Positions 18,662-31,730 of a DNA stretch of 64,000 nt are shown piece by piece. Source of the DNA: Gammaproteobacteria bacterium (lineage in GTDB: Bacteria > Pseudomonadota > Gammaproteobacteria > Steroidobacterales > Steroidobacteraceae); contig RFOD01000001.1 in the NCBI GenBank assembly GCA_009926865.1, positions 62,001 through 126,000 of the forward strand. Direction: 5' to 3'. The notes below the pieces were generated by a model. It searched no databases. It saw only the letters and a program-made list of their open reading frames with translations, and was not told where the DNA came from. The position numbers were made by a program, and so were the translations under genes. Positions within the stretch are counted from its first letter, which is position 1. Every line of letters starts with the position of its first letter.

Positions 18662-19317
18662 TCGTGACTCATCAAAACGCCGAGCAACTGGACTTCAATA
18701 AAGGCTCAGGCCTGATGGTCGCGATTGCCCAACATGCCCTATCAGGCGAGGTGTTAATGGTGGCCTGGATGAACCGCGAGGCGCTCGCCCGGACCTTAGA
18801 TGAGCGCGTTGCAGTGTTTTATAGTCGCTCCCGCCAATCTTTGTGGCGTAAGGGGGACACCTCAGGTCACACCCTCACAGTCCAAAGTATCCTTGCCGAT
18901 TGCGATCGAGACGCGCTCTTACTGCGCGTGATGCCTCAGGGCCCAGCCTGTCACACCGGCGCCCGAAGCTGCTTTCTCGCCGAGACCGACTCCCCTGAGA
19001 CGCAACAGGCGCTTGCCGGTGACTTCTTACACCGTCTTGAAGGCATTATCGATGAGCGCATCGCCACGGCAATAACCAAAGATAATACCGAGGAAAGTTA
19101 TACCGCCCGATTGCTTACGCGAGGATCACGACGCATCGCGCAAAAGGTGGGCGAAGAAGCTATTGAAACGGCGCTGGCAGGCGCGGCAGGCGATCTCGAT
19201 GAGCTACGTAATGAGTCGGCCGACTTGCTCTTTCACTGGCTACTACTGCTTCGACAGCAAGGAGTCTCGCTCGATGAGGTGCTTACGACGCTTGCGGAGC
19301 GGCATCGCGCCCGCTGA
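18658..19317 (+). CDS. hisI: Bifunctional phosphoribosyl-AMP cyclohydrolase / phosphoribosyl-ATP pyrophosphatase
   Basis: HisIE fusion of 219 residues for steps two and three of the pathway. Residues 1 to about 115 are the cyclohydrolase, with [28 protein letters not shown] and zinc-binding [10 protein letters not shown] and CHTGARSCF. Residues about 120-219 are the MazG-like pyrophosphatase, with [12 protein letters not shown] and [14 protein letters not shown]. Last gene of the operon; its final 35 bases overlap the 3' end of lysAC on the other strand. Confidence 0.97.
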
Positions 19318-21964
19318 GGGCGATTTCTTGGGCGGGTGCGCGCAAATTATAGTGCGATGACATGCTCGCACCGTACGCCCCTGCTGTTGCCACCAACAAC
19401 ACATCGCCTTCGGCCGTCGCACGCGGTAACACCCGATCATGACCGATGACATCGCCCGTTTCACAGATGGGTCCGACCACATCAAAAATTCCCGTATCCG
19501 GATCATCGATGCGCGAGAGATTCACAATCTCATGATAAGCCCCGTAAAGCGCGGGACGAATCAACGAATTCATGCCCGTCGCGATACCCACGTAGCCACT
19601 AGCACCTTTGAGCTTAAGCTGGGTCACTTTGGCCAGCATCACCCCGGATTCGGCAACCACATACCGACCGGGCTCGAGCCATAGTGCAACCGAGGGCCAG
19701 TCTCGACGTACGTCAGCGAGTGCGGCATCCAGCGCCGTCAAATCCAATTCAGGCCCGCCTGATCGCTCGGGAACACCGAGCCCACCGCCCAAATCGATAA
19801 TGCGTACATCAGGGAACTGCTCGCGCACGCTTGCAAGCGCCGCCGCCACCTGTCGCCAATTACCGACATCCAGTACCCCACTACCCGAGTGTGCATGCAA
19901 GCCAATGATTTGGCATCCTGCCATATGCGAAAGCGATACCAGCTCTGGCACCTCCCACAAGGGCACGCCAAACTTTGACTGCGTACCCCCCGTGCGAACG
20001 TGCTGGTGATGCCCACGGCCGCTACCGGGATCAAGGCGTACCAGTACCTCGCGACCTGCAAACAACTCGGGCCAATGCCGTAGCGGATGTAAGTTATCTA
20101 AGGTGACGTGGACCCCTTGTGCCAAGGCGGTTTCGTACTCGCCTCGAGCGGCAAAGTTGGGCGTGAACAAGATTCGATCGGGCGCGAGCTCAGGGACACA
20201 CTCACGAACATGTGCAAGTTCTTCCGCCGACACGCACTCGAGCCCCAGACCTTGGGTCACGACAGTCGACAAAATAGCTGGGTGGGCATTAGCCTTAATC
20301 GCATAGAAAACCTGATCCACTGCACTTAACGCACGGAGGCGCTGGCAGCGCTCAATGACGGTCGCAAGATCGTACACGTAAGCCGCGTCACGCCCGTCAT
20401 CCATCAGGGTCTGTAATTCGGTTTGACGATCGCGCCACCAGGGTCGCGTCGCCGTCAGCATCGGCTCGAACTCGGCTTTAAACAGACGACTCCAACTTTG
20501 ACCGATGACTGAATCGTCTTGCACGCGGGTAATCAATAAATCGTGCAAGCCCTCGACCAAACGCTCGCCCTGGGATTCATCGACTACAAAGGTCAGGTTT
20601 AAATCATTGGCCGCCTGGCTCACTAGATAAATTCGCTGCTCTTTAAACAACTCCAAGGCTTCGCCCAGTTGATGAAGGATGCCGCGAATATTGCGCCCGA
20701 CCACACTCACCGAGGCACAGGGTCCAATGAGTTCTGCCCGGCATAATCCAGCCAGCGCTTGCTGCAGACTCGCTAGTACGGACTCATCCAGTGCGTTCGC
20801 CTGCGGATCCAAGGATACCGTCACGTTTGTTTCACTGGTGGATACGAGGTCAACCGACAGACCTAATTGTTTAAAAATCTGAAAGGCATCAGCCAAGAAG
20901 CCAACCTGATGCCACATCCCAGGGCTTTCCATGGAGACGAGATTCACTCCCGTCTTCAGACAGATCGCTTTGACCTGTGCCGAATCATTGACGGGAGCGG
21001 TCGTAATACGCGTATGACCGAGCCCGGGGGCGTGCGTAGAAAGCACATGTAGGGGAATGGCGCGCTGCCGTACCGGAAGCAAACAACGCGGGTGTAATAT
21101 TTTGGCACCCGCAGTCGCGATCTCCTGTGCTTCATCATAGGTGAGCTCGCGTAATTGCCGAGCTCCCGGCAACTGCCGCGGGTTCGCACTGAACATGCCC
21201 GGCACATCGGTCCAGATTTCAAGCCGTTGCGCAGATAACAACCCCGCAAAGTAGGCTGAAGAGGTATCTGATCCCCCTCGACCCAAGAGCACCGTATCGC
21301 CTGCCGAATCACTCGCGATGAAGCCTTGTGTGATCAGTAAACGTCCTTCGGACCGAAGCCGTGCGTCGACCGCCGGATTCGCGGCAAACTCGCAAGTCGC
21401 CGACAGATACTGGGCCTTAGACCGAGCGGCCTCTCGATGTACCGCACGCAATGAGTTGCGAGCATCTGTCCAAACCACTGGCAATCCCAGCCTATGCAGA
21501 TAGGCCGCACCGAGACGAGTGGCCAATAATTCACCGGTGGCCATGACGCGCGCACGCGCTCGATCATCGATACTTGGACTCGAGCGTAGCTGCTCAATGA
21601 AATCTATAAACAGTTGCCACTCTTCGCCAAGCGCGCCTTGCGGATCAACCCCGAGCTCCATAGCGAGTTGCCAGTGTCGCTGTCGCAGGTGGGTCAGTAG
21701 CGCATCCACTGACAGACCATCCGTAGCGTTGGTCTCCGAGCGCTCCCCGTCAGACAGGACTGCCAACAAAGATTCCAGTTGGTCGGTAACTTTACTCAGT
21801 GCCGAATGGACGATGAGCACGTGAAAGGATTCGCGAAGGCGCTCCTCGGCAATGGCGGCAATTTTTTCCCAGACCGACAACGAAGAAACACTCGTTCCTC
21901 CGAACTTGAGCACGATCCAGCCAGGACGGACCTCGGACACCCGCTCGCTCCGCTCAATCGTCAC
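19283..21964 (-). CDS. lysAC: Bifunctional aspartate kinase / diaminopimelate decarboxylase
   Basis: 893-residue fusion of the first and last enzymes of lysine synthesis. Residues about 15-470 are the aspartate kinase: KFGGTSV near the start, GRGGSDTSSAYFAGLL, TDVPGMFSANPR and paired ACT domains. Residues about 500-893 are the PLP decarboxylase: YAIKANAHPAILS with the PLP lysine, HAHSGSGVLDVGNW, DLGGGLGVPE and ICETGDVIGHDR. The start is GTG at 21964, overlapping the upstream small ORF as GTGA. This fusion is known from Xanthomonas and Xylella relatives. Joint lysine control is likely but no leader element was seen. Confidence 0.95.
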   Translation of the reverse strand: MTIERSERVSEVRPGWIVLKFGGTSVSSLSVWEKIAAIAEERLRESFHVLIVHSALSKVTDQLESLLAVLSDGERSETNATDGLSVDALLTHLRQRHWQLAMELGVDPQGALGEEWQLFIDFIEQLRSSPSIDDRARARVMATGELLATRLGAAYLHRLGLPVVWTDARNSLRAVHREAARSKAQYLSATCEFAANPAVDARLRSEGRLLITQGFIASDSAGDTVLLGRGGSDTSSAYFAGLLSAQRLEIWTDVPGMFSANPRQLPGARQLRELTYDEAQEIATAGAKILHPRCLLPVRQRAIPLHVLSTHAPGLGHTRITTAPVNDSAQVKAICLKTGVNLVSMESPGMWHQVGFLADAFQIFKQLGLSVDLVSTSETNVTVSLDPQANALDESVLASLQQALAGLCRAELIGPCASVSVVGRNIRGILHQLGEALELFKEQRIYLVSQAANDLNLTFVVDESQGERLVEGLHDLLITRVQDDSVIGQSWSRLFKAEFEPMLTATRPWWRDRQTELQTLMDDGRDAAYVYDLATVIERCQRLRALSAVDQVFYAIKANAHPAILSTVVTQGLGLECVSAEELAHVRECVPELAPDRILFTPNFAARGEYETALAQGVHVTLDNLHPLRHWPELFAGREVLVRLDPGSGRGHHQHVRTGGTQSKFGVPLWEVPELVSLSHMAGCQIIGLHAHSGSGVLDVGNWRQVAAALASVREQFPDVRIIDLGGGLGVPERSGGPELDLTALDAALADVRRDWPSVALWLEPGRYVVAESGVMLAKVTQLKLKGASGYVGIATGMNSLIRPALYGAYHEIVNLSRIDDPDTGIFDVVGPICETGDVIGHDRVLPRATAEGDVLLVATAGAYGASMSSHYNLRAPAQEIALSGRDAAPQAS

Positions 21965-23978: not shown

Positions 23979-25396
23979 ATTACTACTCCCACCAAAGAAA
24001 TCACCACAATAGCGGCTAAATTGACCCATAAGCCCGCCTTCAACATTTGTTCAAATTGCACCCGACCGGTACCAAACACCATGGCATTCGCGGGTGTACC
24101 GACTGGCATCATGAATGCAGCCGATGAGGCCATCGCGGCTGGGGCGATCAGCGCTAGGATCGAGTGATCCGAGCTCGCGGCCACAGCGGCTAAAATCGGC
24201 AAAAAGGTTGCGGCCGTTGCCACATTACTATTTAGCTCTGTCCAGAAAACGAGCACTGCGACGATCGCGATAATTAGCAAGGGTAACGGCCAGCCTCCCA
24301 GTACACTCAAAGATTGGCCTAGGATCATCGCAAGCCCACTCTGCTGAATGGAGGCTGCCAGAGCAAGACCACCTCCAAATAAGAGCAAAATTGACCACGG
24401 CAACCGACCAATGTCCTCGGCGGCGAGCAGAGCGGACTGTCGGCCAGAGGGAATCACAAACAAAACGAGACCGGCCGCCACTGCGATCGACGTGTCATTC
24501 AAGCCCGCGAGCGGTGCCCAATTATTGAGCCATGGGCGAACAATCCACAGTAACGCGGCGCTACCGGCGACCATCGCCACACGCCTCTCAGCAATCGTAA
24601 TGGGACCTAACGAATCGACTGCGTCTGCAAGTGCCTGATCGGACTGTCCGAGTTTTGCGGCATTGAATGGCAGCGCAACATGAGTGAGTAGCCACCATGT
24701 CAGGGGCAATAGCATTGCGACCGTCGGTAGTCCAAAAACAAGCCAATCGAGAAAGGTGACCTCGACGTCAAAGTTTTTAGCCATGAAGCCTTGCACAATC
24801 GCGTTGGTCGGTGTTCCGATGAGCGTCCCTAAGCCACCAATGGTCGCCCCATAAGCCACCCCCAACAGCAAGGCCGCCGAGAATTGCAGACCATCCCGAT
24901 CCTCGTTCACACCCGGCTTCGCCGTGCCCATCGCCAAGGTCGCAACCGCGACGGCCACGGGCAGCATCATCAGCGCGCTTGACGTGTTCGAGACCCACAT
25001 ACTCACCGTGGCGGTCGCAATCATGACGCCCAGCACCAAGCGTTTGGGTTCAGCACCTAAAATCCCCATGATGCGATACGCAATGCGACGGTGTAATTGC
25101 CAATTCTCCATCGCACGGGCAATCAGAAAGCCACCTAAGATCAGCATCACCGACGAATTGGTGTACTCGCTTAATACCTTCGCAGGATCAGGTAAACCCA
25201 GCAAAGGAACCCAGATCAAAGGCAGCAAAGCGGTCGCCGACAGCGGCACTGCCTGCAAGGCCCACCAGAGAGCCATCCAACCGGTGATACCCAAAACACG
25301 CCAACTGGTGTCGGTAAAAACATCCGGTGCCGACACAAGCCATGTCATCGCAAAGAACGCGGGCCCGACGATGAGTCGCAGTAAGGAACCCATCAC
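23972..25396 (-). CDS. DASS/SLC13 family anion symporter
   Basis: 474-residue integral membrane protein with about 11-12 hydrophobic segments. Family features are the first SNT-type motif SNTSSALMMLPVAVA (about residue 135), TPTNAIVQGF after it, and the second repeat ELNSNVATAATFLPIL with GTPANAMVFG near the C-terminus; these repeats form the sodium/substrate sites. Substrates in the family include C4-dicarboxylates, citrate and sulfate, and the sequence does not decide. It begins at GTG or the following ATG, overlapping the stop of the L,D-transpeptidase. Confidence 0.9.
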   Translation of the reverse strand: MMGSLLRLIVGPAFFAMTWLVSAPDVFTDTSWRVLGITGWMALWWALQAVPLSATALLPLIWVPLLGLPDPAKVLSEYTNSSVMLILGGFLIARAMENWQLHRRIAYRIMGILGAEPKRLVLGVMIATATVSMWVSNTSSALMMLPVAVAVATLAMGTAKPGVNEDRDGLQFSAALLLGVAYGATIGGLGTLIGTPTNAIVQGFMAKNFDVEVTFLDWLVFGLPTVAMLLPLTWWLLTHVALPFNAAKLGQSDQALADAVDSLGPITIAERRVAMVAGSAALLWIVRPWLNNWAPLAGLNDTSIAVAAGLVLFVIPSGRQSALLAAEDIGRLPWSILLLFGGGLALAASIQQSGLAMILGQSLSVLGGWPLPLLIIAIVAVLVFWTELNSNVATAATFLPILAAVAASSDHSILALIAPAAMASSAAFMMPVGTPANAMVFGTGRVQFEQMLKAGLWVNLAAIVVISLVGVVIA

Positions 25397-26388
25397 AAGA
25401 CGTCCGGTGCATAGAGCTTAAGTTCTGGTTCAAGCTCTAAGCCAATCATTAAGGGAATACCCGACGACTCACGTAAAGCACTGATAGCGAGATCCCAGTT
25501 GATCATGACTTCGCTATCCCCCAGTAGCTCATCGAGTCGCGCTTCAAAGATTTGTAAATCGACCACTGTCGCTTGCCCCTCTTCATTGATGGGGGGGTGA
25601 ACTTCCAGCCAGATCTCTCCTCCCACCTTCGCAAGTTTGACCGGTTCGTTGATCAATGCGACCTCGGTACCGATCGGTACGTCCGGAAACATGCGCGCGA
25701 TATCTTCGGGATACATACGTAAGCAACCGTGAGTGACCGCCATCCCCACTGCGTCCGGGTTATTAGTGCCATGAATCAGATACGCACCGCTTGGGATCCC
25801 GAGTCGCATCGCGTGCCGACCGAGTGGATTATCCGGTCCGGGCGGGACGACCCGCGGTAGCGGACGCTCTCCCCGTGCTGCGCGGTCCCGACGCACGGAC
25901 TCAGGCGGTGTCCAGGTCGGGTTCACACGCTTAGACACAATCGTGGTCACGCCCAGCGGCGTACGCCAGTCCATTTTGCCGACACTCACCGGGTAGGTGT
26001 AGACCTTAGCCGCTTGGCCCTTAGGGGGCTTGGGGAAAAAGTACAGGCGATTCTCTGGCAAATTCACCACGATTCCGCGTCGCTCGCCAGGAGGCAGAAC
26101 ACGCTGGCCCGGAATCACGACCTCGGTCCCCTCCCCCGGCAACCATGGGTCGACGCCTGGATTAACCCTCAACAGCTCCTCGTACCCGAGACTGTATTGT
26201 CGGGCGAGTTGGATCAACGTGTCCTCGTAGCGCGTACGAACTCGCAGCACCTCGCCAAAGAGACCATCTCCAGATTCAGGCAAGAGATATTCCGAGCTAT
26301 GCACCCATGGGGATGCCACGCTACTCAGCAGCGCCGCGACCGAGACCAAAAGCGTACGGGAGATGCAAGAAACGTTCGAACCGTCCAT
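25393..26388 (-). CDS. L,D-transpeptidase (YkuD domain) with LysM-like segment
   Basis: Exported peptidoglycan cross-linking or lipoprotein-anchoring enzyme of the ErfK/YcfS type. From the ATG at 26388 a signal peptide is visible (SRTLLVSVAALLSSVASPWVHS). A LysM-like region follows (TRYEDTLIQLARQYSLGYEE). The catalytic motif HGTNNPDAVGMAVTHGCLRM holds the His and the Cys of HGC. An earlier GTG at 26415 has a better ribosome site (AGGGAAG) but would lengthen the signal n-region. Its stop overlaps the transporter start. Confidence 0.9.
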   Translation of the reverse strand: MDGSNVSCISRTLLVSVAALLSSVASPWVHSSEYLLPESGDGLFGEVLRVRTRYEDTLIQLARQYSLGYEELLRVNPGVDPWLPGEGTEVVIPGQRVLPPGERRGIVVNLPENRLYFFPKPPKGQAAKVYTYPVSVGKMDWRTPLGVTTIVSKRVNPTWTPPESVRRDRAARGERPLPRVVPPGPDNPLGRHAMRLGIPSGAYLIHGTNNPDAVGMAVTHGCLRMYPEDIARMFPDVPIGTEVALINEPVKLAKVGGEIWLEVHPPINEEGQATVVDLQIFEARLDELLGDSEVMINWDLAISALRESSGIPLMIGLELEPELKLYAPDVL

Positions 26389-26457
26389 GGGTTCGAATGA
26401 TGCCCGATCTCTCACCAAAATGGGCTTCCCTAAAAGCGTGATACGACGGGAGCTGAC

Positions 26458-27357
26458 CTAATTGAGAACCACCATGAGCTGCTCAACCTCCTCGGCCACC
26501 GACTCTCGTAGCGCTGAAGGATCCATTTGTCCGTAGCCAAGACGGTGCGCTGCGGGGGACTGCCTAAGAACCCCCTCCCAGGGATCTGGGCCTTGCTCGG
26601 GCGCTGGTAAATCTACGAGTGCGTCGCCTAGCGCGAGTACGTCAAGAAGATGATCCTGCACGAGCCTAAGATCGCTGCTCGCAGCGTCTCGCGCCTCAAA
26701 ACACGTCACCGCTCGCACAATGTCCGGCGCAAAGTCCCACTCACGAAGCAACTGATCGCTCACGCGCGCATGCCAAGAATCTAGGACATGCGCCAGCGCA
26801 GCCGAGTCTTCGAGTAAGGACGCCGACCACGCGGCTCGTGTCAGCAAGACGATCTTACCCATGTTGTGCAAGAGCCCCGCCAAAATCGCGGAATCTTTGG
26901 ACACTGCCGGCAGCGGCGCGCTTAGCCCACGACAGAGGCTAGACATGCGGATCGCTCTCTCCCATAGACGGCCCATCGGTTCCCGAACCAATGTGTATTC
27001 TGGCAAGCTGCGTACAGCCGACAAAGAAAACGCGAGCAACACCACGCGCAAGGTATCGTGCCCAAGGCGCGCGATCGCTGCCCCCAACTCTTTTGGCGCA
27101 CGACCGGCGGGACGGAACGCAACGGAATTCGCCATCCCAATAATTCGAGTCGAGAGTTCGGGTTCGCGCTGAATCAATCGGGCGAGTTGATAATTCGAAC
27201 CGAAATCGTCTGCCAACTGACGCAGCAAGAGGCCCGTGATGTCCGGCAAGCCCACGATGTTGATCGCGCCTACGCGTAATTCGCGCTCTAACTCAATGAT
27301 AAAGGCGTGCGCCTCAGGTGTGGGCGCCGGTGTCATAGCTCGGCCTTCATCTGTCAC
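26458..27357 (-). CDS. HDOD domain protein
   Basis: 299 residues, mostly one HDOD domain (residues about 25-225), a degenerate HD-hydrolase fold used as a signalling scaffold. Typical segments are LIQREPELSTRIIGMANSVAF and AGLLHNMGKIVLL; the latter keeps His-Asn where true HD enzymes have His-Asp. GTG start overlaps the stop of the MotD-like gene as GTGA, so it is co-translated with it. HDOD genes are often near chemotaxis or motility genes; here it came in on the motD side of the fusion junction. Confidence 0.88.
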   Translation of the reverse strand: MTDEGRAMTPAPTPEAHAFIIELERELRVGAINIVGLPDITGLLLRQLADDFGSNYQLARLIQREPELSTRIIGMANSVAFRPAGRAPKELGAAIARLGHDTLRVVLLAFSLSAVRSLPEYTLVREPMGRLWERAIRMSSLCRGLSAPLPAVSKDSAILAGLLHNMGKIVLLTRAAWSASLLEDSAALAHVLDSWHARVSDQLLREWDFAPDIVRAVTCFEARDAASSDLRLVQDHLLDVLALGDALVDLPAPEQGPDPWEGVLRQSPAAHRLGYGQMDPSALRESVAEEVEQLMVVLN

Positions 27358-28154
27358 TGCGAGTAAAAATCCGTCGAACCTTTATCCGATTGTAAAATCG
27401 CGAGAATAACCCGACGGTTTGCCGCACGACCCTCTACGTTTTCATTGGTCTCAACCGGGCGATGCTCGCCAAAGCCAATGACCGTGAGCCGCGTCTCCGG
27501 AATGCCGACGGTCGCCATCAATCGGGCAACCGATGCCGCGCGCGACGCGGAAAGCTCCCAATTACTGGGATAGCTTGCAGTCTTGATCGGCAGGTTATCC
27601 GTATGGCCTTCAATTAAAATCGGATTCGATACGTCGACCAATTGGCTTGCGAGTCGCCGAATAATCTCCTGCGCCGTAGGCGGTAGATTTGCTGACCCGC
27701 TGGCGAACAGGATGTCATTACGCAGTTCGATCTCCACCCAACCGCGATGCTGGCGAATCATGAGCTGATCCGCGAATACCAGATCCTGCATTTCAACCGC
27801 GATGTTGTCAGCGATTTGCACAAGTGAGGGGGCCCTTGGTTGAAGCTGCGTTTGTTGACCGGCAGCCGTACCCTGTGGACTCGTAGGATTGGGTACTGCG
27901 ACCACATTTGGCGTCGGAATACCCTCTTGTCGTAGCTCTGCGGTGAATGGCACCTCACGCTGCGGTTCACCGCGAAAGGCGGCATTGAGCGCGTCTGAGA
28001 GGACACGATACTTGCCAGAATTAACTGAGGAAATTGAATACATCACTACGAAAAAAGCGAGCAACAAGGTAGAACTATTTGCGATGTTATTCGCCGTCGC
28101 TGACAGATCCGTCTGAGCGGCATTCATTCCACTGATGGCGGTACGCATGGACAT
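27354..28154 (-). pseudogene. FlgE-MotD chimera: flgE start fused to the MotB/MotD stator body
   Basis: 266-residue in-frame ORF. Residues 1 to about 27 (MSMRTAISGMNAAQTDLSAT and ANNIANS) are the N-terminus of the flagellar hook protein FlgE, with its ribosome site AGGAAATCGAT and its place right after flgD. From about residue 28, TLLLAFFVVMYSISSVNSGK is the transmembrane segment of a MotD/MotB stator protein, and residues about 145-255 are its OmpA-like peptidoglycan-binding domain (IEGHTDNLPI, NWELSASRA, GRAANRR). The usual MotB lead-in SYADF, which carries the proton-channel Asp, is missing, so it cannot work as a normal stator. The junction is near 28070-28075. Confidence 0.88.
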
Positions 28155-28183
28155 ATCGATTTCCTCTAAATAAAGGTGAAGGG

Positions 28184-28846
28184 CTACATCACATGCCGTA
28201 CAGACGACAGTGCGATGCGACCGTTATCGGTGTTAAGAAGTAGACCCGCGCCTTGGCCATCGACCGTGATACTGCGCACGGTGCTCAAGACGGAAACCGG
28301 CAATGCTTCCGTTCGGTCGGCATAGCGCGCCAGCGCGTTGATTTGATACGGCCCAGGCATCAAAGATTCACCGTCCGCGCCGCGCCCGTTCCAGCTGTAC
28401 TCGCGCTCGCCACCGCCGGGACCCAGTAACAACCGCGACACCTCGACACCCATCGAGTCACGAATGACCACTTCGACGGCAGATGCCGTGTCAGGCACCT
28501 CGATCGTGCCGCGCACCGGACGTTGCCCATCAAACGAGGCGATATTTCCCTCGCTCAATACACCACGCCCGATCAAGCTTGCGCCTTCTACGGTTTGCGA
28601 TGCGCGCAAGGCATCCACCATGCCACTTAATTGGGATTGCATCCCTTGTACGCCCGTTACGGTGCTGAACTGCGCGAGTTGCCCCAAGAACTCGCCGGGC
28701 TCTAAGGGCTTGAGCGGATCCTGGTTTTTGAGCTGGGCCAACATGAGGGTCAAAAATTGCTCCTGACCCATCTCGCCCATGCCGCGAGACGCTGTTTCAC
28801 CCTTGCGAATCAGCGTGCCAGAAAGCGGCTCTTGAATCGTGGTCAT
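28184..28846 (-). CDS. flgD: Flagellar hook assembly protein (hook cap)
   Basis: 220 residues. FlgD caps the growing hook and helps FlgE polymerise. The N-terminal conserved part MGQEQFLTLMLAQLKNQDPL (about residues 26-45) and EFLGQLAQFSTVTG are clear, and the C-terminal half has the beta-rich FlgD Ig/tudor region (GEREYSWNGRGADGESL). It follows flgC by 4 bases. Its normal partner gene flgE is reduced to its first codons 29 bases downstream. Confidence 0.93.
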   Translation of the reverse strand: MTTIQEPLSGTLIRKGETASRGMGEMGQEQFLTLMLAQLKNQDPLKPLEPGEFLGQLAQFSTVTGVQGMQSQLSGMVDALRASQTVEGASLIGRGVLSEGNIASFDGQRPVRGTIEVPDTASAVEVVIRDSMGVEVSRLLLGPGGGEREYSWNGRGADGESLMPGPYQINALARYADRTEALPVSVLSTVRSITVDGQGAGLLLNTDNGRIALSSVRHVM

Positions 28847-28850
28847 AGCG

Positions 28851-29261
28851 TTACTGTCCCAGTCGTAGCGTGGCGAGCATCAGATCACGCGTGGTGTTCA
28901 TCACTTCCACGTTATTTTTGTAGGCGCGAGAGGCGGAAATCATGTCAACCATCTGCTCAACCGCGCTGATATCCGGTACGAAAACGTACCCTTCCGCGTT
29001 CGCTAACGGATTACCCGGCTCATAGCGCGTTAATGGCGCTTTATCGGATTGCACCACTTGACTCACGCGGACCGCGGAGCCCTCATCGCGCGCCAACTGA
29101 CTGCGCACTTCCTCAAAAATAACGGCGCGTGCGCGATACACATCCTCGGGGCGCCCTGCCACGGTATTCGCGTTGGCAAGATTACTGGCCACGGCGTTGA
29201 GGCGAGTGGATTCCGCGCTCATCCCGGAGCCTGCGATTTCAAATAACTTAAAACTCGACAT
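28851..29261 (-). CDS. flgC: Flagellar basal-body rod protein
   Basis: 136-residue proximal rod protein, exported by the flagellar type III system. The N-terminal rod motif is SRLNAVASNLANANT-like: ESTRLNAVASNLANANTVAG (residues 17-36). The C-terminal heptad segment is VEQMVDMISASRAYKNNVEV. Length and order after flgB are normal. Confidence 0.95.
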   Translation of the reverse strand: MSSFKLFEIAGSGMSAESTRLNAVASNLANANTVAGRPEDVYRARAVIFEEVRSQLARDEGSAVRVSQVVQSDKAPLTRYEPGNPLANAEGYVFVPDISAVEQMVDMISASRAYKNNVEVMNTTRDLMLATLRLGQ

Positions 29262-29276: not shown

Positions 29277-29693
29277 TTACTGACCCGTGATCGCAGTCAT
29301 CAGACCGCGCATCTGGGAACTAATGAAATTGAGCGAGGCCTGATAGCGCACAGCGTTCTGTGCGAAAGCCGCCTGTTCGCGTTGAATATCGACGGTATTA
29401 CCGTCCAGCGAAGGCAGTACGTCCGTCCGATCCTGTAAACGCCACGGGCCGCCCATGGCGGCTGGTACGCCCGGCAAATGGCTGGCCTGGGTCGTCAATA
29501 AATTGGCGCTTTGACCTGAAGGCGATGGCGAACCCCGCAGCGCCGTATCCAGTGCCAAACGGAAATCGAGATCCTGTGCCTTATAATTAGGTGTCTCCGC
29601 ATTGGCGATATTTCGCGCCAGAACCTCGGCGCGTTTCGCACTGAGCTGTAAGGCTTGTGCGTGCAATGCGAAATGAGCATCTAAGTTAAACAT
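29277..29693 (-). CDS. flgB: Flagellar basal-body rod protein
   Basis: 138-residue proximal rod protein. The N-terminal rod motif SAKRAEVLARNIANAETPNY is at about residues 18-37, and the C-terminal helix is VRYQASLNFISSQMRGLMTA. A GGAGGATGATCA ribosome site precedes its ATG. First gene of the flgBCD remnant operon, behind a near-perfect sigma-54 promoter. Confidence 0.95.
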   Translation of the reverse strand: MFNLDAHFALHAQALQLSAKRAEVLARNIANAETPNYKAQDLDFRLALDTALRGSPSPSGQSANLLTTQASHLPGVPAAMGGPWRLQDRTDVLPSLDGNTVDIQREQAAFAQNAVRYQASLNFISSQMRGLMTAITGQ

Positions 29694-29733: not shown

Positions 29734-29749
29734 AGCAAGTGCCATGCCA
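29734..29749 (-). promoter_or_regulatory. Sigma-54 promoter of flgBCD
   Basis: On the minus strand TGGCAT-GGCAC-TTGCT matches the -24/-12 consensus TGGCAY-N5-TTGCW at every defined position. It lies about 45 bases before the flgB ATG. Sigma-54 with a FleQ- or FleR-type activator drives flgB operons in Pseudomonas-like bacteria. Confidence 0.85.
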
Positions 29750-29978: not shown

Positions 29979-29994
29979 TGGCATGTATGTTGCT
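29979..29994 (+). promoter_or_regulatory. Sigma-54 promoter of flgA
   Basis: TGGCAT-GTATG-TTGCT fits TGGCAY-N5-TTGCW fully. The start point expected about 12 bases after the GC element (near 30004-30006) falls almost on the flgA ATG at 30007, so the transcript would have little or no leader. The ATG at 29983 lies inside the promoter and cannot be the translation start. Confidence 0.75.
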
Positions 29995-30006
29995 GATTCA
30001 ATCACC

Positions 30007-30735
30007 ATGAATCAGCGTGACAAACTATTGGCGTTATCCGCCTGGCTGCTGTGTGCTTCGCTTTCAATCTATGCGCAGGCCAGCCACGCGCAAAGTCCAC
30101 CCGTTTCGTCGACCTATCAACTGCATTCACACGCGGAGATTTTGCAAACTGCGGCGCAGTCGTTACGAAATCGTGCACCGGATGCCATCATCGAGGCGCA
30201 GCCCATCGACCCGCGCGTTCAACTACGCCGCTGCTCAGCACCGCTACAAACCGATGTTCCTTTAGGGGTGGCGTTAACGGCGCGAATCAATGTGCGGGTT
30301 CGCTGTCTCGCACCGGCCGCGTGGAGTCTCATCGTTCCCGTCTCCGTGAGCACAGAAACCGAAGTCTGGGTATCCGCCCGCCCCTTACGCGCAGATGAAC
30401 CGCTTCGGGAAATCGACCTAAGACGGGAAACTCGACGATTTCCGGGGACCGACCGCTGTTGTGTCCGTGATTCCGCCGAAGTGATCGGTAAAGTGCTGCG
30501 TCGACCGATTGCTGCAGGCACGGTCCTGAAGCGCGCGGACATCGAGATCGCTGATTCGATCAAGCGTGGCGAGATCGTCACGATCGTCGCAAGCGAAGCG
30601 GGTTTCGAAGTCCGCGCAAGCGGCGTCGCGCTGGGGGATGCCAAACCTGGAGAACCCGTTCGCATTCGGCACTCAAGTTCACTCAGGATTGTGCAGGCCC
30701 GTGCCGATACACCGGGTGTGGTGAGGGTGCCATGA
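30007..30735 (+). CDS. flgA: Flagellar basal body P-ring formation chaperone
   Basis: Periplasmic chaperone for FlgI P-ring assembly. 242 residues from ATG 30007, giving a standard signal peptide (MNQRDKLLALSAWLLCASLS, cleavage after SHA). The C-terminal half is the SAF/FlgA domain: WVSARPLRADEPLREIDLRR, VIGKVLRRPIAAGTVLKRAD and GEIVTIVASEAGFEVRASG. The substrate of this chaperone (FlgI) is not encoded in the window. Confidence 0.9.
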   Translation: MNQRDKLLALSAWLLCASLSIYAQASHAQSPPVSSTYQLHSHAEILQTAAQSLRNRAPDAIIEAQPIDPRVQLRRCSAPLQTDVPLGVALTARINVRVRCLAPAAWSLIVPVSVSTETEVWVSARPLRADEPLREIDLRRETRRFPGTDRCCVRDSAEVIGKVLRRPIAAGTVLKRADIEIADSIKRGEIVTIVASEAGFEVRASGVALGDAKPGEPVRIRHSSSLRIVQARADTPGVVRVP

Positions 30736-30832: not shown

Positions 30833-30868
30833 CCCGCTTGGGAAAGTGGCAAAAGTGTGGAGACTGCC

Positions 30869-31213
30869 ATGACAATCAAAGTAAATTCGTTCGAGCCGCG
30901 GCTGGTGCCGGTCGGTCAGGAACATCCAAGCCGCGTAGCTAGCAATCCGACGGATCGCGCTGACGTGGCGAGTGCGATGAGTTCTGGGACGGCAACTCAA
31001 GCCGAGGAACGTTCGGTCGCGTTGACGCCAGCGAGTCGGCAACTCGCCGAGTGGTTGCGTGATGAGACATCCGAAGCGGGTGTGGATGCAGCCAAAGTCG
31101 CTCGTCTACGGGTTGAAATCGAGCACGGCACCTACCGGCTCGACTCGACGCGTATCGCCGAGGGCCTACTGACAAGCGAGCGTGAGCTCTTACAGCGAAT
31201 GGACCGTGGCTGA
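30869..31213 (+). CDS. flgM: Anti-sigma-28 factor
   Basis: 114 residues. FlgM holds FliA inactive until hook completion allows its export. The C-terminal FliA-binding region is recognisable: VDAAKVARLRVEIEHGTYRL followed by DSTRIAEGLL. The N-terminal half is low-complexity and disordered-looking, as in the family. ATG chosen because GGAGA precedes it by six bases. Ends one base before flgN. Confidence 0.88.
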   Translation: MTIKVNSFEPRLVPVGQEHPSRVASNPTDRADVASAMSSGTATQAEERSVALTPASRQLAEWLRDETSEAGVDAAKVARLRVEIEHGTYRLDSTRIAEGLLTSERELLQRMDRG

Positions 31214-31214
31214 T

Positions 31215-31730
31215 ATGTCTGATGACCTGTCGCATCGGAACGCCGATCAGGTGCAAACCGAACTGGCTCGTCAGCTCAGCGTCGAGCGGCGCTTACTCAC
31301 CGAGCTTGAGCGACTGCTTAAGGAGGAACGTGAGGCGTTGCAGCAAACGGTGGCACCCGAGCACCTCGAGCAGGCCTGTAATCGTCGCCAACAATGCATG
31401 GGCGAGTTACTTCGCCTACAGGACGAACGGAACCAGTGGCTTTTGCAAGCCGGTGTCACAGCCGATATTGCGGGGCTCTTACAACTCATCCGCCGCAGTC
31501 ACGTCCCAGGTAACGTCCCGAGCCAGTGGGCCGAGTGCGCGGCTCTCGCCAAACGTTGCCGCGATATGAACCAACAAAATGGTGCCTTGGTGGCCTCGCG
31601 TATGAGACGGGTTCAAGGCGTACTCAATATTTTGATCGGTCAAGGCGCCGACGCCGTGCCGGCGACTTATTCACGCCAGCTGACCGACTCGGCTCGACCG
31701 AGCGGACGAGTGTTGTACCTCGAGGCCTAA
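31215..31730 (+). CDS. flgN: Flagellar export chaperone for hook-associated proteins
   Basis: 171-residue helical protein matching FlgN by position after flgM and by pattern: ERRLLTELERLLKEEREALQ early in the protein, then NRRQQCMGELLRLQDERNQW. FlgN binds FlgK and FlgL before export, neither of which is encoded here. The ATG at 31215 lies one base after the flgM stop; a start at 31182 would overlap flgM. Confidence 0.78.
   Translation: MSDDLSHRNADQVQTELARQLSVERRLLTELERLLKEEREALQQTVAPEHLEQACNRRQQCMGELLRLQDERNQWLLQAGVTADIAGLLQLIRRSHVPGNVPSQWAECAALAKRCRDMNQQNGALVASRMRRVQGVLNILIGQGADAVPATYSRQLTDSARPSGRVLYLEA

Follow-up and report, generated by a model that had tools for sequence, protein, structure and literature searches.

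An in-frame fusion of the flgE start to the motD body, apparently left by deletion of a flagellar gene cluster in several species of one genus of Steroidobacteraceae

The stretch of DNA analysed in this work (the window, 64,000 nucleotides, bases 62001-126000 of contig C1) belongs to the draft genome G000 (2.32 Mb, 103 contigs, 97% complete). The window harbours genes of a flagellar locus, referred to here as the first flagellar system, and its neighbours:

25393..26418, minus strand: L,D-transpeptidase gene (YkuD; Pfam), the conserved right-hand neighbour that served to locate the locus in relatives
26458..27357, minus strand: HDOD-domain gene (Pfam), overlapping the end of motD
27354..28154, minus strand: flgE'-motD chimeric ORF, 266 aa (profile matches; chimera also in G001, G005 and G023)
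27354..28067, minus strand: MotD-derived part, with a truncated transmembrane segment without the Asp, a linker and an OmpA-like peptidoglycan-binding domain (Pfam, NCBIfam, alignment)
28068..28070, minus strand: junction codon (Thr), with a 2-nt AC microhomology in the intact G007 flgE/motD pair
28068..28154, minus strand: FlgE-derived N-terminus, 29 codons (Pfam Flg_bb_rod 3-29; alignment against the intact G007 flgE)
28184..28846, minus strand: flgD of the first flagellar system (Pfam FlgD, FlgD_ig and FLgD_tudor)
28851..29261, minus strand: flgC (TIGR01395 above cut-off)
29277..29693, minus strand: flgB (TIGR01396 above cut-off)
29734..29749, minus strand: sigma54-like site TGGCATG-N4-TTGCT upstream of flgB (pattern scan)
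29983..30735, plus strand: flgA (TIGR03170 above cut-off)
30857..31213, plus strand: flgM (TIGR03824 above cut-off)
31182..31730, plus strand: flgN (Pfam FlgN)

The site upstream of flgB was called with the sigma54 consensus. The loose pattern had three matches across the whole 64-kb window, and such a site preceded flgB in 7/7 regions scanned (the window, G001, G005, G023, G007, G018 and G003), in fused, eroded and intact loci alike. A 120-aa gene lies between motD and the HDOD gene in G001, G005, G023 and G007 and is missing in the window (27354-27357). Elsewhere in the window, positions 19283-21964 hold an 893-aa ORF that by eye appears to be a fused aspartokinase/diaminopimelate decarboxylase.

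The chimeric ORF lies directly after flgD, with the HDOD gene and then the L,D-transpeptidase gene beyond it. In Pfam, residues 3-29 matched Flg_bb_rod (PF00460, 25.3 bits against a cut-off of 20.7), residues 29-60 corresponded to positions 27-58 of the 58-position MotB_plug model (38.6 bits), and residues 149-247 matched OmpA (PF00691, 74.3 bits), the C-terminal peptidoglycan-binding domain being present. The top NCBIfam model was MotD, aligned from model position 23 (262.5 bits, under the 283-bit cut-off). Compared to the hook protein FlgE, the chimera has the start site and the first 29 residues, and neither the hook body nor Flg_bbr_C or any other hook domain was among the Pfam families that it matched. 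These profile matches, together with the same join in three other genomes (see below), confirmed at the level of sequence that the ORF is a fusion, in frame, of the FlgE start to the MotD body, as an initial annotation of this DNA had proposed. That annotation placed the junction at 28070-28075, an estimate accurate to one or two codons; the actual Thr codon is at 28068-28070, and either parent, FlgE or MotD, might be the source of Thr29.

The initial annotation had also noted the loss of the segment carrying the proton-channel Asp, and this was borne out by the alignment. Intact relatives read AIPYGDLVT-LLLAFFVVMYS or AIPYADLMT-LLLAFFVVMYA, while the window chimera reads NIANSST-LLLAFFVVMYS; its helix begins at LLLAFFVVMYS, and the conserved Asp and the helix start are missing. 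The Asp-bearing segment was seen in all of the intact MotD rows inspected and is gone in 4/4 fused genes. The functions assigned to MotB Asp32 and to the peptidoglycan-binding motif, as well as proton carrying by the MotB/MotD Asp, are taken from the MotB literature (PMC6680979). The hydrophobic core of the chimera is 15 residues long (mean hydropathy 2.27, compared to 2.57 in the intact protein), and a structure model had very low confidence in the N-terminal half (pLDDT 30-35). The best matches to the cognate MotC in G000, G001, G005, G018 and G023 were only 28-33% identical and stood at other loci; a 73% identical match was present in the intact G009. The chimera shares with stator B subunits (MotB/MotD, MotCD type) a short N-terminal tail, a membrane helix and a periplasmic OmpA-like peptidoglycan-binding domain, but its N-terminus is that of FlgE, the Asp-bearing start of the helix is gone, and no MotC was found above 33% identity.

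Related genomes, which the initial annotation had suggested inspecting, do carry the same junction. In a search of 40 relatives, a chimera with a codon-exact identical join was found in G001, G005 (JALRHE010000104.1, a Steroidobacteraceae MAG) and G023, all of the same genus, indicating that the join is not due to chance and that the gene is real and apparently maintained, not a product of misassembly. The fused genomes make up 4/24 of the genus genomes searched, and no further ones were found among these. The chimera proteins of G001, G005 and G023 are about 57-58% identical to that of the window. The gene order flgB-flgC-flgD-chimera-(120-aa gene)-HDOD-L,D-transpeptidase-SDR was read in these three genomes, and flgN-flgM-flgA plus the genes up to lysAC were read in G001 and partly in G005. 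A 75-aa junction query matched 155 of 396 genomes of the order, a set from which G005 was absent; among the matches listed, residues 1-75 were covered only in G000, G001 and G023. The other listed matches started in MotD (residue 24-29) or ended soon after the FlgE part, except for G018, which aligned from 15 to 72 through a stop codon. A text scan of 304 sequences found the chimera in G000, G001, G005 and G023 only, and a contig search (best 80 loci) returned one chimera record, G005's own. Judged by titles and abstract openings, none of the papers listed by literature searches describes an flgE-motD fusion or the flagella of this genus.

G007, the sister of G001, has a complete flgE and a complete motD, with about 37 kb separating the positions of the two break points. 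Between them lie flgF to flgL, several flagellins, fliD, a fleQ-like gene, fliF to fliR, flhB, flhA, flhF, a fleN-like gene, fliA and motC (most names assigned by eye), and the cluster looks complete. The DNA of G007 and G001 is 88-90% identical and collinear on both sides of the 37-kb difference. Among the 33 candidates scored per genome, a 19-kb stretch from the G007 interior had no match at the expected identity in G000, G001, G005, G018 or G023; matches over 400 nt were 66-70% identical, and closer ones were short. FlhA was present once in G000 and once in G001, as one partial copy each in G005 and G023, and twice in G007. All of the genomes are drafts (77-97% complete); consequently, single absences are weaker evidence than the joint pattern. 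The comparison with G007 showed an apparent deletion of about 37 kb that removed the core of the first system between flgE codon 29 and the motD transmembrane segment. The initial annotation's large deletion, leaving only flgNMABCD and motD-HDOD, thus describes the locus correctly but not the whole genome, where a second flagellar system remains.

In G000, the second system is carried by contig C52 (flgD, flgE of 1076 aa, flgF, flgG, flgH, flgI, flgJ, flgK of 1064 aa, flgL and fliD) and contig C20 (fliM to fliR, flhB, flhA, flhF, fliA, motA and motB), several of the names being assigned by eye; C52 ends just before flgD. FlgE and FlgK of this system are very long, and on contig C32 an ORF of 1186 aa resembles flagellin (by eye). 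The G000 second-system FlhA groups with those of other members of the genus, well separated from the first-system branch, in an FlhA tree that omits 7/15 second-system rows as too short (G001, G005, G006, G008, G009, G010 and G019) and 2/12 first-system rows as empty (G021 and G025); the partial FlhA of G005 lies outside this typing. The initial annotation had named a complete flgE and a complete motD elsewhere in the genome as evidence against a genuine fusion. A complete flgE does exist, but it belongs to this divergent system (tblastx identity of 47% across the first 30 residues), and no complete motD was found in the search of G000. The search for flagellar genes in the rest of the genome, also suggested there, found neither the first-system interior nor its MotC at the expected identity, but flgD-flgL, fliD, flhA and fliA are present as parts of the second system. 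Overall, the initial interpretation is partly supported. The bacterium seems to have lost one of two flagella and, as the second system is present, the cell may still be flagellated. That the second system needs flgA and flgM of the first was considered and rejected on the basis of relatives: flgA-like ORFs occur in the second system of G007, G008 and G009, and a flgM-like ORF in that of G009 (by eye). In G023 (bin contamination 6%), contig C1 is a flagellar contig that resembles the first system, and its flgE and flgB are divergent (64% to G001); its probable source is a different species of the genus.

The phylogenetic data bear on whether the junction arose once or several times, and they point in both directions. 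No first-system FlhA was seen in 9/10 genomes of the G000 clade (rpoB+rpoC tree, clade support 81; G018, with 131 aa of rpoC, G010 and G011 not included, and the G005 row poorly filled), and only G007 has it. This pattern and the shared codon-exact join favour, by parsimony, one deletion and one regain. On the other side, G001 pairs with G007 in the rpoB, rpoC and joint trees, G005 and G023 falling outside that pair, and grouping the fused G001, G005 and G023 without G007 was disfavoured with rpoB+rpoC (AU p = 0.023). Moreover, over the last 188 columns on the left side, the sites up to the junction group G001 with G007 (25 vs. 5 and 1), the G007 first-system FlhA is sister to that of G009/G010, as vertical descent predicts, and in motD, grouping all four fused genes was disfavoured (p = 0.022, long branches present), while grouping those of G001, G005 and G023 was not rejected (p = 0.33). 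The junction-side sites and FlhA, in which G007 looks related to G001 and G009 by ordinary vertical descent, and the motD result favour several losses. The left flank looks mosaic, as if recombined between species: dS between G001 and G005/G023 is 0.36-0.55 in flgB-flgD and 0.85-1.45 in motD, HDOD and transpeptidase genes. A long-lived presence/absence allele pair recombining in its flanks could fit both patterns; the analysis covered one genome per species. A substitution peak at the boundary, as recombination would be expected to leave, did not reach significance: G001 and G007 differ at 12 positions in the 80 nt around the junction (40 nt either side; mean 7.9), and 13.7% of windows are as high.

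A possible explanation, to which we give about one third of our confidence, is recurrent exact deletion, the cluster having been lost separately, at the same codon pair, in G000, in G001 and in the ancestor of G005/G023. FlgE (NIANxxT) and MotD (D-L-x-T-LLL) both conserve the Thr, which would provide a standing in-frame AC microhomology, and the join is among the few places that drop the Asp yet keep the membrane helix. The local flanks, rpoB+rpoC and FlhA support the sisterhood of G001 and G007 and vertical descent of the G007 cluster, motD disfavours a single clade of four fused genes, and G018 shares the motD break point of the fused genomes to within a codon, with a different flgE break point. 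Nor are there extra amino-acid changes on the G001 branch, as if the loss were recent (changes on the G001/G007 branches, outgroup G005: flgB 5/6, flgC 5/4, flgD 9/9, motD 1/3); relaxed selection after loss in G001 was accordingly rejected for these four genes. However, the join has only 2 nt of microhomology, which argues against microhomology as the sole cause. In-frame alignments of the G007 pair offer at least 2 nt in 47 of the 655 cases tested, and 3 nt in 15; since so many match or exceed the observed join, chance alone would hardly pick the same one again and again.

Selection on the retained genes was estimated with frames taken from stop to stop, the flgB and flgC rows including some codons upstream of the start and the motD rows beginning at LAFF. 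Between G005 and G023, the fused motD had a dS of 1.06, a dN of 0.029 and a dN/dS of 0.028 (bootstrap range 0.012-0.049), compared to 0.033 in motD of the intact pair G009-G010, and dN/dS was 0.046 in flgB, 0.106 in flgC and 0.060 in flgD. In flgE' (86 nt), all six sites that differ between G005 and G023 are synonymous (manual count on the alignment). These ratios show strong purifying selection on the fused motD, and by the same measure the flagellar leftovers are not decaying in the fused species. The constraint would point to continued function provided that the fusions are old; were each loss recent, it would attest only to past function. In the first 40 nt of motD after the junction, 14/40 nt differ between G005 and G023, above nearly all neighbouring 40-nt bins, and the protein is the same.

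Other first-system losses in the genus did decay. In G018 (C53, 3560-3600), an apparent flgE ATG is joined out of frame to the motD LLLAFF, the frame being lost at the start; in G003 (C59, 6460-6640), another chimera joins the start of flgB, which carries a frameshift and is cut at the homologous motif (LANAD) to within about a codon, to motD near VVMYS; motD is broken, and this chimera is now a pseudogene. All that G013 retains is part of flgN next to HDOD, the G002 contig shows no match to flg genes or motD, and the G012 contig ends at the transpeptidase and is uninformative on leftovers. With such company, the chimera might itself be a neutral leftover of a recent loss from which nothing useful is made, under either one or several origins, and a recent loss is expected to give no relaxation signal. 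However, the ORF is intact in four species, and G005 and G023 share the junction at a motD dS of about 1 with the dN/dS given above, which is hard to reconcile with a neutral gene if the fusion happened once; we consider a dead relic rather unlikely.

A site-specific recombinase that excises the cluster in a programmed or reversible way would account for the identical junctions and for intact and fused states in sister species. However, only 4/27 third positions within 40 nt of the junction are invariant among the four fused alleles, so that no conserved site beyond the protein was seen and a recombinase site was rejected; visual inspection of the ORFs in the G007 cluster revealed no recombinase, and this alternative is highly improbable. 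The contig misjoin at about 28070 that the initial annotation had left as an alternative, conceivable in a draft of 103 contigs, was rejected as having hardly any probability, given that three further genome records, with about 57% identity at the protein level, share the junction, gene order and frame, one of them inside a 454-kb contig.

The explanation that we prefer, with about even chances as a whole, combines the deletion of about 37 kb, retention of the chimera as a peptidoglycan-binding protein, a single-origin empty-site allele and acquisition of the G007 cluster by exchange. The deletion in the first system left the in-frame chimera behind flgBCD, and the sigma54-like promoter of flgB, the flgE start site and the 29-residue N-terminus now head a truncated MotD, which would be translated from the flgE start site. 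The hydrophobic core of about 15 residues should act as an N-in membrane anchor, exposing the OmpA-like domain to the peptidoglycan. Without the conserved Asp and the MotC partner, the chimera would not conduct protons and presumably cannot be a working stator; most likely, it is a membrane-anchored periplasmic peptidoglycan-binding protein kept by selection, a function predicted from its domains. The junction probably arose once and would have persisted as an 'empty-site' allele, while G007 would have acquired its intact cluster from relatives that retain it, through homologous recombination in the flanking DNA, in the manner of flexible genomic islands. PMC4033161 describes flagellum-related islands of aquatic bacteria exchanged via recombination in their flanks. 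The replacement flexible genomic islands treated there (flagellum glycosylation, O-chain) resemble the present case in having a variable flagellar locus at a fixed place between collinear flanks; here, however, it is core flagellar genes that are absent, and the empty site is an in-frame gene common to several species. As in motility loss by flagellar gene deletion, one flagellar system was apparently lost through a large deletion, but here several species share the codon of the break point, and purifying selection is seen on the product.

In a bolder reading, the scar would be a functional gene. An flgE'-motD fusion that arose once, long ago, would have been co-opted as an envelope protein and retained over long evolutionary times, the whole cluster would be swapped in and out of the genus at the same point, and intact flagellum and chimera would be alternative alleles across species. 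We regard this as unlikely, at about one chance in four. If true, it would mean that flagellum loss can give rise to a new gene that is retained at the point of deletion, and that a 37-kb organelle cluster can act as an on/off allele. G001 and G007, sister species that differ at the locus by exactly this event, offer a clean natural test.
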